A DNA stretch of 64,000 bases, taken from the NCBI RefSeq assembly GCF_002042965.1, contig NZ_MZNT01000005.1:1-64000 (forward strand). Direction: 5' to 3'. The translations under genes were made by a program, and so were the position numbers. Of this stretch, positions 7,270 to 25,910 are shown one piece after another (position 1 is the stretch's first letter; each line of letters begins with the position of its first letter). The notes under the pieces are model-generated. The model searched no databases and was not told where the DNA came from. It was given only the letters and a program-made list of their open reading frames with translations. This DNA comes from Paenibacillus sp. 32352. Lineage in GTDB: Bacteria > Bacillota > Bacilli > Paenibacillales > NBRC-103111.

Positions 7270-8124
7270 TTATTTCTTGGCCCCATATAAAAATTCCGCA
7301 ACTTCATCTTCCATTTGGAAGGAATGCTCGGCAAGCGGGAATTGGCGCTGCTTAACCTCATCTACATACTGCTTGATTCCATCCCTTATGATGCTGCCGA
7401 CATTCGCGAATTCTTTGACAAACCGTTTAGGAACGATATCGGATCCATAACCCAGAGCATCATGAAATACCAATACCTGTCCATCGCAATGCGGGCCTGC
7501 ACCGATGCCGATCGTCGGAATGGATATTTCGTTGCTTATATGCTCAGCCAGCTGTTCGGTGACAAGCTCCAGGACAACAGCAAAAGCGCCTGCCTGCTCC
7601 AATGCTTTGGCCTCCTCCAGCAGCTTCTGAGCCTGGGCAGAATTTTTCCCTTGAATCTTATATCCTCCGATTTGATGAATGGATTGCGGCGTCAGTCCGA
7701 TATGACCCATGACAGGAATCCCTGACCGGGTGAGAACGGATACTGCCTCGGCAATTTCGACTCCGCCTTCCATCTTAACCGCTTTTGCTGCCCCTTCCTG
7801 CATAATCCGGGCGGCATTGCGAATCGTAGTATCTATGCTTCCGTGATAAGTCATAAAAGGTAAATCCGTAACGACAAAGGCGGATTGTGCCGCCCTCGCG
7901 ACCGCTCTGGAGTGATAAATCATATCTTCAATAGTTACAGGAATCGTCGAATCGTAGCCGAGCACGACATTCCCTAGAGAATCCCCCACCAGAATGACAT
8001 CAACCCCGGCTTCCTCCGCTAATTTGGCAGAAGGATAATCGTAAGCCGTGATCATTGAAATCGGCACGCGATCCTCTTTCATTTTTTTCAATTTTGCTGT
8101 AGTAACCGGTCTCCGCTTTTCCAT
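7270..8124 (-). CDS. panB: 3-methyl-2-oxobutanoate hydroxymethyltransferase PanB
   Basis: 284 residues. Transfers a one-carbon unit from methylene-tetrahydrofolate to ketoisovalerate to make ketopantoate, the first committed step to pantothenate and CoA. The TIM-barrel motifs are clear: [37 protein letters not shown] and GHIGLTPQ. The ATG at 8124 follows AAGGTGTGGATAAC; a GTG three codons earlier lies too close to that site. First gene of panBCD, behind a leader that holds a promoter (8360-8388) and a terminator (8175-8209). Confidence 0.97.
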
Positions 8125-8174
8125 GTTATCCACACCTTCCCTCAGCTTTTTGGTCGTGTTCCCTTAGTATGAAC

Positions 8175-8209: not shown

Positions 8210-8359
8210 CACATGGCAAAAAAAATCATATGATCCTTCTGTCTCGGTCCGTAAGGCTCAGAGCAGAATCCGACATATTTCAGGATACAGCTATGAAATT
8301 GTTTGATGCCATCGTTCATAACAAGTGCAATTCACAAAGGATATCGCCTTGTAGAGAAC

Positions 8360-23184: not shown

Positions 23185-23817
23185 CTATGATTTCGTTCTG
23201 GAAAACCAATTCATGATAAGCAGCGTGCAGGTAAGACCTAACAGCGAAACGAAAATTAAGTAGTCCTTGAACGTATGGATCGGGCCTACCTGATACATGA
23301 ACGGTTCGCTAAACCCTTTTAAGCTAGCCACCGCGGAAGGCATCGTATGTACGTTCATCGAATCCGATTGACTTCCTGCGACGACGACGGGATCCCCGAT
23401 TCGCCCGAATACGGCAGAGCCTGACGTGGAAGCAGTCATTTCCGGTGCGGCTTGATGCGTGATGGAGTATACGAATGAAAAAATAAACAAGGCAAGGCAA
23501 AACGCGACGACCGCCGTAATATTCCTGCGCAGCTTAAACGAGATGGCGTACATCCGATCCGTAACCGGCACCCTCCAGGATTCATCCTCATAGATGCGGT
23601 TCATGACATTGCGGGAAATTGGCGTAGAAATCTCAGCCAGCTCTTCAGCGCCTGCCGCGGATTTAATCAGCTCCGTGCTCTCGCGCCATATCTCAAATTC
23701 CATCGCGCAGTAGCTGCACGTTTTAATATGCTCATCCACACATTGTCTTTTTAAGTCATGCTCAGGCAAATCCCAATAGGTACCCAGCAGCTCTTGAATA
23801 TCTTCACACTTCATCAT
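23185..23817 (-). CDS. Zinc-finger anti-sigma factor
   Basis: 210 residues. N-terminal zinc-binding anti-sigma (ZAS/zf-HC2) domain with H-x3-C-x2-C in DEHIKTCSYCAMEFE (about 28-42), a membrane helix at about 98-117 (ITAVVAFCLALFIFSFVYS), an outside segment, and a second helix near the C-terminus (LIFVSLLGLTCTLLIMNWF). It should hold the adjacent ECF sigma factor inactive at the membrane until released by proteolysis. ATG overlaps the sigma stop (ATGA), so the pair is made together. The signal is unknown. Confidence 0.9.
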   Translation of the reverse strand: MMKCEDIQELLGTYWDLPEHDLKRQCVDEHIKTCSYCAMEFEIWRESTELIKSAAGAEELAEISTPISRNVMNRIYEDESWRVPVTDRMYAISFKLRRNITAVVAFCLALFIFSFVYSITHQAAPEMTASTSGSAVFGRIGDPVVVAGSQSDSMNVHTMPSAVASLKGFSEPFMYQVGPIHTFKDYLIFVSLLGLTCTLLIMNWFSRTKS

Positions 23818-24404
23818 CGTTTCATCCCTTCGTACTCCTCAAAGATCGGATCGAGAAAGTATGGCTCCAATTGGAGCTTTACACTGGCTCTGGCTCTGAA
23901 CAGCAAGGATTTGACCGAACTCACCGTCTGCCCGAGGATATTGGCAATCTCCTGGTAATCCAATTGGTCGTATTCGCGCAGGATAAGCGCGGACCGCTGC
24001 TTCTCAGGCAAATTGTTGATAGCCTCGCGTACCATCGTCACTTTCTCATTCCGAAGAACCGTCAATTCCGGCATCACATCCGACCCGGCATGAGGCTCAT
24101 GTCCGCTTTCTTCCAAAGATACCTTGATACTTTTATTTTTACGCAGCTCGCTCAGCACCGTATTCCTGGCTATCGTATACAGCCACGTAGAAAAGGTCGC
24201 CTCCACCTCACGAAAGGAGTGCAGGCTTCGGTACGCTTTATAGAAGGTCTCATTGCATAAATCCTCCGCGAACGATTCCATCTGGGCGCTCTTCAACATG
24301 TGATAGATAAAGGCAAGAATTTTCCGTTCGTAGCGACGCATTAGCTCATCATATAATTGGACGTTGCCGTCCTTGATCTCTCTGATCAACTGGGAATCGG
24401 TCAT
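23814..24404 (-). CDS. ECF sigma factor
   Basis: 196 residues. Region 2 is seen in LYDELMRRYERKILAFIYHM and AEDLCNETFYKAYRSLHSFR with FSTWLYTIARN; region 4 in LPEKQRSALILREYDQLDYQEIANILGQTVSSVKSLLFRAR, whose helix-turn-helix binds the -35 box. It directs RNA polymerase to a stress or envelope regulon and is paired with the membrane anti-sigma gene downstream. AAGGAGGG precedes the ATG. Two nested 8-bp inverted repeats (24433-24478) lie 30-75 bases upstream. It is closest in style to SigX/SigW-type factors; the exact group cannot be fixed. Confidence 0.92.
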   Translation of the reverse strand: MTDSQLIREIKDGNVQLYDELMRRYERKILAFIYHMLKSAQMESFAEDLCNETFYKAYRSLHSFREVEATFSTWLYTIARNTVLSELRKNKSIKVSLEESGHEPHAGSDVMPELTVLRNEKVTMVREAINNLPEKQRSALILREYDQLDYQEIANILGQTVSSVKSLLFRARASVKLQLEPYFLDPIFEEYEGMKR

Positions 24405-24478: not shown

Positions 24479-24661
24479 AGTTGCGGTATTTTAAAAAAAT
24501 TTTAGGAATACTTTTAGCCTTATTATTTTATTCGGTAAACTTGGTCAAAAATCCTGCTTAATCGACAGCTTTCATACAACTTTCAGAATAACTTCCAAAA
24601 AAAGGCTTATGTACCCATTACCTATTCTATTACTTATACTAGAAAAAATGGTTATAAACAC

Positions 24662-24739
24662 AAAAAAAAGAACCACCTGCATGAGGTGGCTGCACATAGT
24701 GCCATTATTCGGATAGGAGTGGAGAGAAACCATACTGTA
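24662..24739 (-). ncRNA. Candidate small RNA, about 78 nt, with own promoter and terminator
   Basis: A perfect promoter (24745-24773) fires into a span that reaches a terminator after about 50 bases: 6-bp stem CCACCT/AGGTGG (24673-24678 and 24684-24689) and T8 at 24662-24669. The RNA would start near 24739 and carries a C-rich single-stranded stretch, TCTCTCCACTCC, complementary to AGGAG-type ribosome sites, a hallmark of Firmicute regulatory RNAs. A 53-codon frame starting at 24733 runs through the terminator but has no ribosome site. Not recognised as a known RNA; existence is inferred, not shown. Confidence 0.6.
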
Positions 24740-24744
24740 CTTTT

Positions 24745-24773
24745 ATTATATGTATACGTTTTCAAAATGTCAA
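24745..24773 (-). promoter_or_regulatory. Perfect sigma-A promoter with cre-like operator in spacer
   Basis: TTGACA (24768-24773), 17 bases, TATAAT (24745-24750), all consensus, on the minus strand. The spacer contains TTGAAAACGTATACA (24751-24765), which fits the catabolite-responsive consensus WTGNAANCGNWNNCW at every fixed position. CcpA or another LacI-family repressor bound there would block polymerase. Confidence 0.8.
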
Positions 24774-24790
24774 TACTTTTTTGAAAACGT
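24756..24790. promoter_or_regulatory. Paired LacI-type operators (12-bp inverted repeat)
   Basis: ACGTTTTCAAAA at 24756-24767 and TTTTGAAAACGT at 24779-24790 form a perfect inverted repeat with an 11-base gap. Each arm holds the central CG of a LacI/CcpA-type operator; the centres are 31 bp apart, three helix turns, so two dimers could sit on one face. The upstream one (24781-24795) fits the cre consensus except at one fixed position. Confidence 0.65.
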
Positions 24791-24806
24791 TTTATTTTAT
24801 TTTTAG

Positions 24807-24844
24807 AAAAAAAGAGAACTACACGTGAACCGCGTAGTTCTCTT
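24807..24844 (-). terminator. Terminator overlapping the tyrA stop codon
   Basis: An 11-bp stem (24812-24822 with 24834-24844) followed by T7 on the minus strand. The tyrA TAG lies in the 3' arm. It closes the aromatic amino acid operon and isolates the small RNA unit behind it. Confidence 0.92.
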
Positions 24845-25910
24845 CTTTCAATAACTCGATAGCCTTATCCATGTGGTATTCCTCACGGAAAGACAACCGA
24901 AGGACTCCCGGGATGTCCTCTCTGCTTTCAATGATTTGAATATTGCTGAGGTTGATCCGGTGATTCCCAAGCAGTGTAGTAATTTGACCGATGATACCCG
25001 GATGATCCGGTACGTCAACATAAACTTCATACACGGAGGTCAGCACGCCCTTGCGTCTCTCCGGCAATGCGGAGCGAAACTTATTGGCACGGCGGAACTG
25101 TTCCTCTATCCCCTCACGGTCGTTATGCTTCAGCTGCTCTATAAACCGTGCAATCTCCGAGTTCCAGTCCTCCAGCAGCCGCAGGATCACTTCTCTGTTG
25201 TCGCTTAAGATGTCGCGCCAGACAATCGGGTCACTAGACGCTATGCGGGTAATGTCCCTGAAACCTCCAGCGGCCAAATTTTGATAGTACTCGTTCGACT
25301 CGTTGTAGCCAGCGATCTGATTCACCAGCGCAACCGCGATGATATGCGGCAAGTGGCTGATAGCCCCGACCACTTCATCATGCAGCTTGGGATTCAGCTT
25401 GACCAGGTGCGCGCGAGTCCATTGAAGCAGCTCCGCCAGACGGTTGTACACTTCGTCCGGAATGGTTGCATCCGGAGTCAGCACATAGAAGGCATTCTCG
25501 TACAAATGCGACGTCGCCGCTTCCGCACCAGACTTCTCCTTCCCTGCCATCGGATGTCCTCCAATGAAGTAAGCATCCTTCAGCTTCAACGTAGAGGCGA
25601 AGGATGAGATGGACGCCTTGGTGCTTCCTGCATCCGTAATAATGCAGCCCGGTTTTAAAGGAAGCTTGGCGATCTTGGCCAAGTATTCTTCCAAATTACC
25701 GACGGGCACACAGATAAAGATGAAATCGGCGTCCTCTACGGCCTCTTCCATGGAAGTAGTCGCATGGTCAACCACTTGGCGTTTTAAATAACGTTCCACC
25801 GATGCTTGGTTCGGAGAATGACCCACCACCGTAATTCCAGGCTTGCCTTTAAAACAAAGCGCTAAGGACCCTCCAATGAGTCCCACGCCAAAAATAGCGA
25901 TTTTCGTCAT
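24819..25910 (-). CDS. tyrA: Prephenate dehydrogenase TyrA
   Basis: 363 residues. NAD-dependent oxidative decarboxylation of prephenate to hydroxyphenylpyruvate for tyrosine. Rossmann motif GVGLIGGSLA (8-17), GGHPMAGKEKSG with the catalytic-site histidine, SHLPHIIAVAL, and a C-terminal ACT domain (about 292-363; YVDVPDHPGIIGQITTLL) likely to sense tyrosine. Follows hisC by 58 bases, as in the Bacillus aromatic supra-operon. B. subtilis has aroE next; here the operon ends with a terminator. Confidence 0.96.
   Translation of the reverse strand: MTKIAIFGVGLIGGSLALCFKGKPGITVVGHSPNQASVERYLKRQVVDHATTSMEEAVEDADFIFICVPVGNLEEYLAKIAKLPLKPGCIITDAGSTKASISSFASTLKLKDAYFIGGHPMAGKEKSGAEAATSHLYENAFYVLTPDATIPDEVYNRLAELLQWTRAHLVKLNPKLHDEVVGAISHLPHIIAVALVNQIAGYNESNEYYQNLAAGGFRDITRIASSDPIVWRDILSDNREVILRLLEDWNSEIARFIEQLKHNDREGIEEQFRRANKFRSALPERRKGVLTSVYEVYVDVPDHPGIIGQITTLLGNHRINLSNIQIIESREDIPGVLRLSFREEYHMDKAIELLKEENYAVHV

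Follow-up and report, generated by a model that had tools for sequence, protein, structure and literature searches.

According to the account given in PMC4409812, RsaE is the only trans-acting small RNA (sRNA) besides 6S known to be common to S. aureus and B. subtilis, and the C-rich region 3 of RoxS binds the ppnKB ribosome site, thereby blocking ppnKB; control of RoxS by ResD and Rex is reported there and in PMC8216469. The latter paper describes RosA of B. subtilis as a CcpA-repressed stand-alone sRNA, conserved in some Bacilli, that sponges C-rich sRNAs via its G-rich regions, and RsaI of S. aureus as a CcpA-regulated RNA with G-rich regions that is restricted to Staphylococcus. The B. subtilis sRNAs FsrA and CsfG also have C-rich regions (PMC4409812), FsrA belonging to the Fur regulon (PMC4409812) and CsfG being under sigma-F/sigma-G control (PMC8216469). 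In a stretch of 64,000 nucleotides from Paenibacillus sp. 32352, hereafter the window, we analysed a unit that resembles RsaE/RoxS as a stand-alone C-rich sRNA of Bacilli; the likeness is in kind only, in that its open C/U-rich core could pair with Shine–Dalgarno (SD) sequences. It carries CcpA-type sites, whereas RoxS is described as being under ResD/Rex control, and it shows no significant sequence relation to RsaE/RoxS and a different location. With RosA it shares the stand-alone organization and, as predicted, the repression by CcpA, and with RsaI the predicted CcpA regulation. As far as these RNAs are described in the cited papers, which sets them apart by description and not by sequence, the new RNA differs from RosA in being itself C/U-rich and from RsaI in that the latter is G-rich and found in Staphylococcus only; FsrA and CsfG are alike in their C-rich regions and differ in their Fur and sigma-F/sigma-G control. 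G-rich sponge regions of the RosA/RsaI kind were not found in the sRNA, the core of which is C/U-rich.

The unit is encoded on the minus strand, as are all of its elements given here. Its promoter consists of a -35 box TTGACA (24768..24773), conserved in the aligned relatives, and a -10 box TATAAT (24745..24750), which reads TATACT in some relatives, separated by a 17-nt spacer, and scores 12/12 as a sigma-A promoter. The spacer contains the catabolite-responsive (cre) site TGAAAACGTATACA (24751..24764), which by eye has no mismatch to the cre consensus WTGNAANCGNWNNCW and one to the form TGWAARCGYTWWCA; a second cre-like site, ATAAAACGTTTTCA (24782..24795), with two mismatches to TGWAARCGYTWWCA, lies upstream of the -35 box. 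The RNA is about 76 nt long (24663..24738), its 5' end near 24738 being inferred from the position of the -10 box, and the covariance model R1 described below matches 24663-24744. It contains the nearly invariant, C/U-rich core AGTATGGTTTCTCTCCACTCCTATCC (24711..24736), predicted to be mostly unpaired, and the C-rich TCTCTCCACTCC falls in the largely unpaired region of the predicted fold. There follow a small predicted hairpin, GCAC-TAT-GTGC (24692..24702), and an intrinsic terminator (24662..24691) made up of a hairpin at 24691-24671 and eight T at 24669-24662. The overall fold of the RNA is no better than that of shuffled sequences (z -0.66; 50 of 200 shuffles equal it). The first-pass annotation of this DNA had claimed a fully consensus sigma-A promoter, a cre in its spacer, a terminator, a short RNA of about 78 nt and an exposed C-rich stretch, and these parts are all present at the places it gave; it had mentioned neither the second cre-like site nor the depth of conservation described below.

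We then investigated how far the unit is conserved. A blastn search with 24655-24810 across the window's genus, family and order matched 58 of 59 genomes, its own included; the sole miss (G058), also missed by the model search, is a draft assembly of 1.4 Mb split into 240 contigs. Rows for the alignment were picked by their core match (at most five substitutions in 31), which gave 57 loci, own included, and left out G045 with its more divergent core (four mismatches, L251). Across these 57 RNAs, 24 of the 26 core columns AGUAUGGUUUCUCUCCACUCCUAUCC are invariant, and each of the other two has one exception (L053, L017). Promoter, spacer cre, core and terminator stay together by eye in all 57 loci, so that the joint retention of promoter and terminator, which had been set beforehand as the test of the unit, holds in close relatives and, as seen below, far beyond them. 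A site resembling AAARCGTTTTC upstream of the -35 box was seen by eye in most loci of the same genus or family, not in all 57. As for the structure, 81.9% of the cells are paired in the small hairpin, 89.7% in the terminator and 86.9% in all stems of the 57 loci, versus 28-43% with the partners slid; the structure was named by hand, and the pair counts therefore lean toward it. The covariation score was 0.270, versus 0.053-0.096 for slid and 0.150 for shuffled controls, and the count of pairs changed on both sides (8 of 11) was not above that of two of the six slid controls. RNAalifold found no terminator in the MAFFT alignment, because the stems are out of register there.

Beyond the relatives, the unit was sought with the covariance model R1. 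At E <= 0.01, R1 matched 186 of 398 genomes of class Bacilli. Four of these matches (in G283, G318 and G401, which carry RsaE, and in G351) were rejected as chance, the best place near each having 6-11 mismatches over the 25-nt core, and the remaining ones fall in 182 genomes of 31 families. The matched locus was inspected for 86 of the 186, in some cases via the motif scan only, with family f33 outside the inspected set; the figure of 186 is no upper bound, since G063 and G086 score below the threshold yet carry the RNA (L279, L278). In a sample of the phylum, listed without its share of genomes from outside the class, R1 matched 7 of 398 genomes at E <= 0.001, all within the window's order. 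A scan for GGTTTCTCTCCACTCCTATCHW gave at least 118 loci, most of which, by eye, are directly preceded by -35 and -10 boxes and followed by a hairpin and T run. Among the matches listed are Paenibacillus, Cohnella, Brevibacillus, Aneurinibacillus, Ammoniphilus, Thermoactinomyces and Melghirimyces, as well as Shouchella, Halalkalibacter, Fictibacillus, Pseudalkalibacillus, Alkalihalobacillus, Marinococcus and Geomicrobium. Throughout the class, the core reads approximately TTTCTCTCCACTCCTA, which corresponds to window positions 24714-24729 (about 16 nt), and family f17 has substitutions within it (L101, L108, L270). Two copies with different promoters occur in single genomes, namely L110 and L111 (G203), L254 and L280 (G090), L121 and L186 (Ammoniphilus sp. 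YIM 78166), and L091 and L117 (G295); the Ammoniphilus-type copies have a greater distance between promoter and core. Viral contigs gave no match for a core 20-mer and 12 raw matches for a core 16-mer, and plasmids gave no core match.

On the basis of sequence comparison, we consider it probable that the locus encodes a stand-alone, CcpA-repressed, trans-acting C/U-rich sRNA of Bacilli, the counterpart of RsaE/RoxS elsewhere in the class. Its transcription, CcpA repression, base pairing and metabolic role are what we infer, as follows. Sigma-A would transcribe the sRNA from its own promoter; in the presence of good sugars, CcpA would bind the cre sites within and close to the promoter and keep the sRNA off, and once the sugar is exhausted the sRNA would be made. 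Its invariant C/U-rich stretch would then pair with the G-rich ribosome-binding sites of several mRNAs, thus blocking their translation or altering their decay, and in the lineages that have it the sRNA would play the role that RsaE/RoxS has in the Bacillus/Staphylococcus part of the class.

The relation to RsaE/RoxS was examined with the Rfam model RF01820, for which B. subtilis served as the positive control. At E <= 0.001, 112 of the 398 class genomes, from 17 families, matched RF01820, and 82 of them exceeded the curated cut-off; the three matches in family f26 are weak (E 8e-5 to 4e-4). After inspection of three overlaps, no true case of the sRNA and RsaE/RoxS in the same genome remained among the 398 genomes, where about 51 would be expected under independence; Fisher's test on 182 and 112 of 398 gave p 4e-38, a value inflated by shared ancestry. 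Neither RNA was found in roughly a quarter of the 398. When 22 genomes with RsaE or with neither were searched, 10 gave R1 matches (15 in all, E 0.06-0.4), none with an intact core, and the nearest of the 15 has three mismatches in the 16 core positions and lacks the surrounding unit. RF01820 itself matched nothing in the window at the gathering score, nothing within 24600-24850 even when E values of up to 10 were admitted, and nothing in the window's genome at E <= 0.001. By sequence, the locus is an independent, deeply conserved promoter–RNA–terminator unit, accompanied by cre-like sites in about half of the families and present in genomes without RsaE.

In a tree of the Der protein from 54 genomes, one per family, 16 of the 17 RsaE families group with three genomes that have neither RNA (support 93), and this group is nested in one of 23 rows (support 99) that includes three families with the sRNA. 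The split needs two changes without the 'neither' rows; with them, the RsaE label needs four, of which the starred branches force one. In this tree 25 of the 51 inner branches are open and the root is for drawing only, and it points to few events, perhaps to one replacement. More tentatively, and with rather less than even confidence, we propose that the sRNA was an ancestral, CcpA-controlled central RNA of Bacilli, its core nearly unchanged over much of the class, that was lost, perhaps once, as RsaE/RoxS took over in the Bacillus/Staphylococcus line, the two being functional equivalents that answer to different signals.

Alternatively, the sRNA could be a rearranged and far-diverged ortholog of RsaE/RoxS, and not an independent RNA that RsaE replaced. 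The complementary distributions of the two RNAs would fit such a relationship, as would a TTTCTC-CCA-TCC-like run common to both and the fact that the best match of R1 in a 6-kb search was an RsaE locus (L250, 16.9 bits, E 0.002). The alignment of R1 to RsaE, however, deletes 17 core positions, and the likeness of the core to RsaE lies within chance, since 11% and 24% of shuffles do as well. The genomic neighbours differ as well: homologues of yjbI, yjbH and pepF, which are the neighbours of RsaE in L249, were found beside the sRNA at none of the 168 class-set loci and none of the relatives' 57 loci, many of which span a 1.5-kb flank. We thus regard common descent of the two RNAs as rather unlikely.

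The proposed control by CcpA was assessed over 247 distinct loci, a sample dominated by Paenibacillaceae, by taking the best match within -95..+100 of the core. A cre-like site with at most two mismatches to TGWAARCGYTWWCA was present at 221 of the 247 loci, versus 21 of 741 mononucleotide shuffles, which were pooled over the families. Of 30 families, a CG-centred cre-like site is present in 14 and a CC-centred variant alone in four, and 12 have neither. The position depends on the lineage, since the site lies in the promoter spacer in families f1, f10 and f15, overlaps the -35 box in f16 and f37, stands upstream of it in f45 and f53, and falls in the terminator region in f32, f56, f62 and f68. 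In the Brevibacillus-type family f32, the cre-like TGAATGCGCTTACA or a close variant is placed, by eye, in the loop of the terminator within the RNA gene (L077, L079, L089, L091, L094 and L095), where the stem does not need it. The CC-centred variant and some of the other terminator sites, which overlap the stem, may be mere terminator stems; the retention of a cre-like site at shifting positions argues for genuine CcpA control. The catabolite-type control claimed in the first-pass annotation is supported by enriched cre-like sites at lineage-dependent positions, with 12 of 30 families lacking them. Thermoactinomyces-type loci (L081, L097, L134, L178, L206, L224 and L235) keep the RNA without a cre-like site where scanned, and by eye share a similar CAGAAAATT/CTGAAAATT ahead of the -35 box. 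We also searched for the CodY box, whose consensus is AATTTTCWGAAAATT. With at most three mismatches it was found at 32 of 247 loci, versus 25 of 741 shuffles, which we take as a lead; such boxes occur in lineages with and without cre, and with two or three mismatches lie near -60 at L105, L108, L116, L143, L164, L171 and L259.

Regarding the candidate targets, the core is complementary to a ribosome-binding site extending to a start-codon-like CAT (AGGAGTGGAGAGAAACCAT). Pairing with ribosome-binding sites exceeds chance only mildly: the preference of the core for such sites over coding sequence was equalled by 10 of 160 shuffles, and its mean energy at those sites was reached by 36 of 160 for the shorter core; the longer core gave a mean of -17.55 versus -15.72 for shuffles (sd 0.77). 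The pattern GGAGTGGAGA-N2-10-ATG occurred in 66 rows in 24 genomes, versus 14 for a reversed control that is, however, not SD-like, and on inspection 39 of the 66 begin a reading frame that either reaches 60 aa or continues past the end of the retrieved sequence. Genes recurring in two genomes each were what we take to be DAHP synthase, in two families, and, within the genus, a presumably HisI-like gene and an unnamed one. The presumed DAHP synthase starts preceded by GGAGTGGAGA, which is complementary to the core, are at L286 1514 and L303 1513; when DAHP synthase starts of 30 genomes were compared, 25 had GGAGTG or GGAGAG, but extended pairing was not kept among them. The genes that we name from their sequences as DAHP synthase (in two families), HisI-like and LysA-like are possible targets as leads only. 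Measured against 533 background starts, eleven candidates rank within the 1-13% tail, the value of L241 being unsound in that an ATG inside the SD sequence was taken as the start. No single significant, conserved mRNA target emerged from the searches across starts and orthologs, in which none of the ortholog clusters and 223 triples (from 400-464 kb of three genomes) beat the shuffled-query best (-2.06 versus a mean of -2.13).

This lack of a significant mRNA target agrees with a further explanation, in which the core is mainly the site of an RNA-binding protein or of a single fixed RNA partner, and the sRNA is a sponge or titrator and not a broad regulator. Seeds are usually shorter than the 16-26 nt that are invariant here (26 columns in the relatives, about 16 nt class-wide), and this length may hint at a protein or a single constant partner. 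PMC8216469 moreover describes the CcpA-controlled RosA as a sponge and RsaI as a proposed one, yet both are said there to bind via G-rich regions, whereas this sRNA is C/U-rich. Within the 64-kb window, the complement of the core with at most three mismatches occurs only at the sRNA gene itself, which also speaks against a fixed partner there, and the whole-genome partner search, made with 13-mers and one mismatch, gave 12 places, including the sRNA gene. We hold this explanation to be unlikely, more so than common descent with RsaE, and retain pairing with several mRNAs as the proposed mode of action.

The surroundings of the unit bear on its independence. It lies between a conserved upstream neighbour, presumably a tyrA-like gene (24819..25910, minus strand), and a downstream gene that we take to encode an ECF-type sigma factor (23814..24404, minus strand), beside a presumed anti-sigma-like gene (23185-23817); a hairpin and T run seen by eye at about 24806-24839 may be the terminator of the tyrA-like gene. 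In the relatives, trpA/hisC/tyrA homologues accompany 51 of the 57 loci (with the RNA inverted relative to them in three of the 51), a sigma gene accompanies 53, and all 57 have one or the other. Among the 168 loci of the class set (L069-L236), many with a 1.5-kb flank only and some of them near kin, trpA/hisC/tyrA homologues occur at 123 (92 on the same strand, 31 on the opposite one) and either marker at 141. The place near trpA-hisC-tyrA thus looks ancestral, with orientation and the sigma neighbour apparently free to vary. Here and in most relatives the RNA is flanked by tyrA and the sigma gene, all three on one strand, an arrangement that would suit a leader or attenuator of the sigma-factor gene or a product of the tyrA 3' end. 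The RNA has its own consensus promoter and terminator, however, is kept where the flanking stretch has no sigma gene (L021, L029, L030 and L044), and is inverted with respect to its neighbours in some lineages, which makes it an independent unit; the leader or attenuator reading, contradicted by the inverted loci, was rejected, and we give this origin hardly any credence. Equally improbable is translation of the core as a small ORF (ATG GTT TCT CTC CAC TCC TAT CC...), a reading rejected because, even with an ATG in the core of 57 of 57 aligned RNAs, conservation is the same at every codon position of the core, by eye the ATG lacks an upstream ribosome site, the part after the core differs between copies in both length and letters, and some distant copies, such as L102 and L111, have lost the ATG.

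Finally, we compared the RNA with catalogued families. In Rfam 15, no family exceeded its gathering threshold in the RNA region of the window or at its own locus and nine distant loci, and at a permissive threshold 24600-24850 gave 13 matches, none near the gathering score. The same database places two group II intron domains (RF02001 and RF01998) at 1178-1475 of the window and a pan motif (RF01749) at 8235-8350, just ahead of an ORF at 7270-8133, all on the minus strand. The core sequence is absent from the main text of open-access PubMed Central papers, and we found no open-access paper describing such an RNA in Paenibacillus, in line with its earlier description as an undescribed RNA. It is an apparently new RNA family of a known kind and of unusual depth.

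The sRNA occurs in 31 sampled families, and none of the sampled genomes from RsaE-bearing families, the home of the model species, yielded it, which may explain why it was overlooked earlier. The two RNAs lend themselves to testing whether one global sRNA has replaced another, and the sRNA would give carbon control in Paenibacillus, Brevibacillus and their relatives an RNA-based branch.
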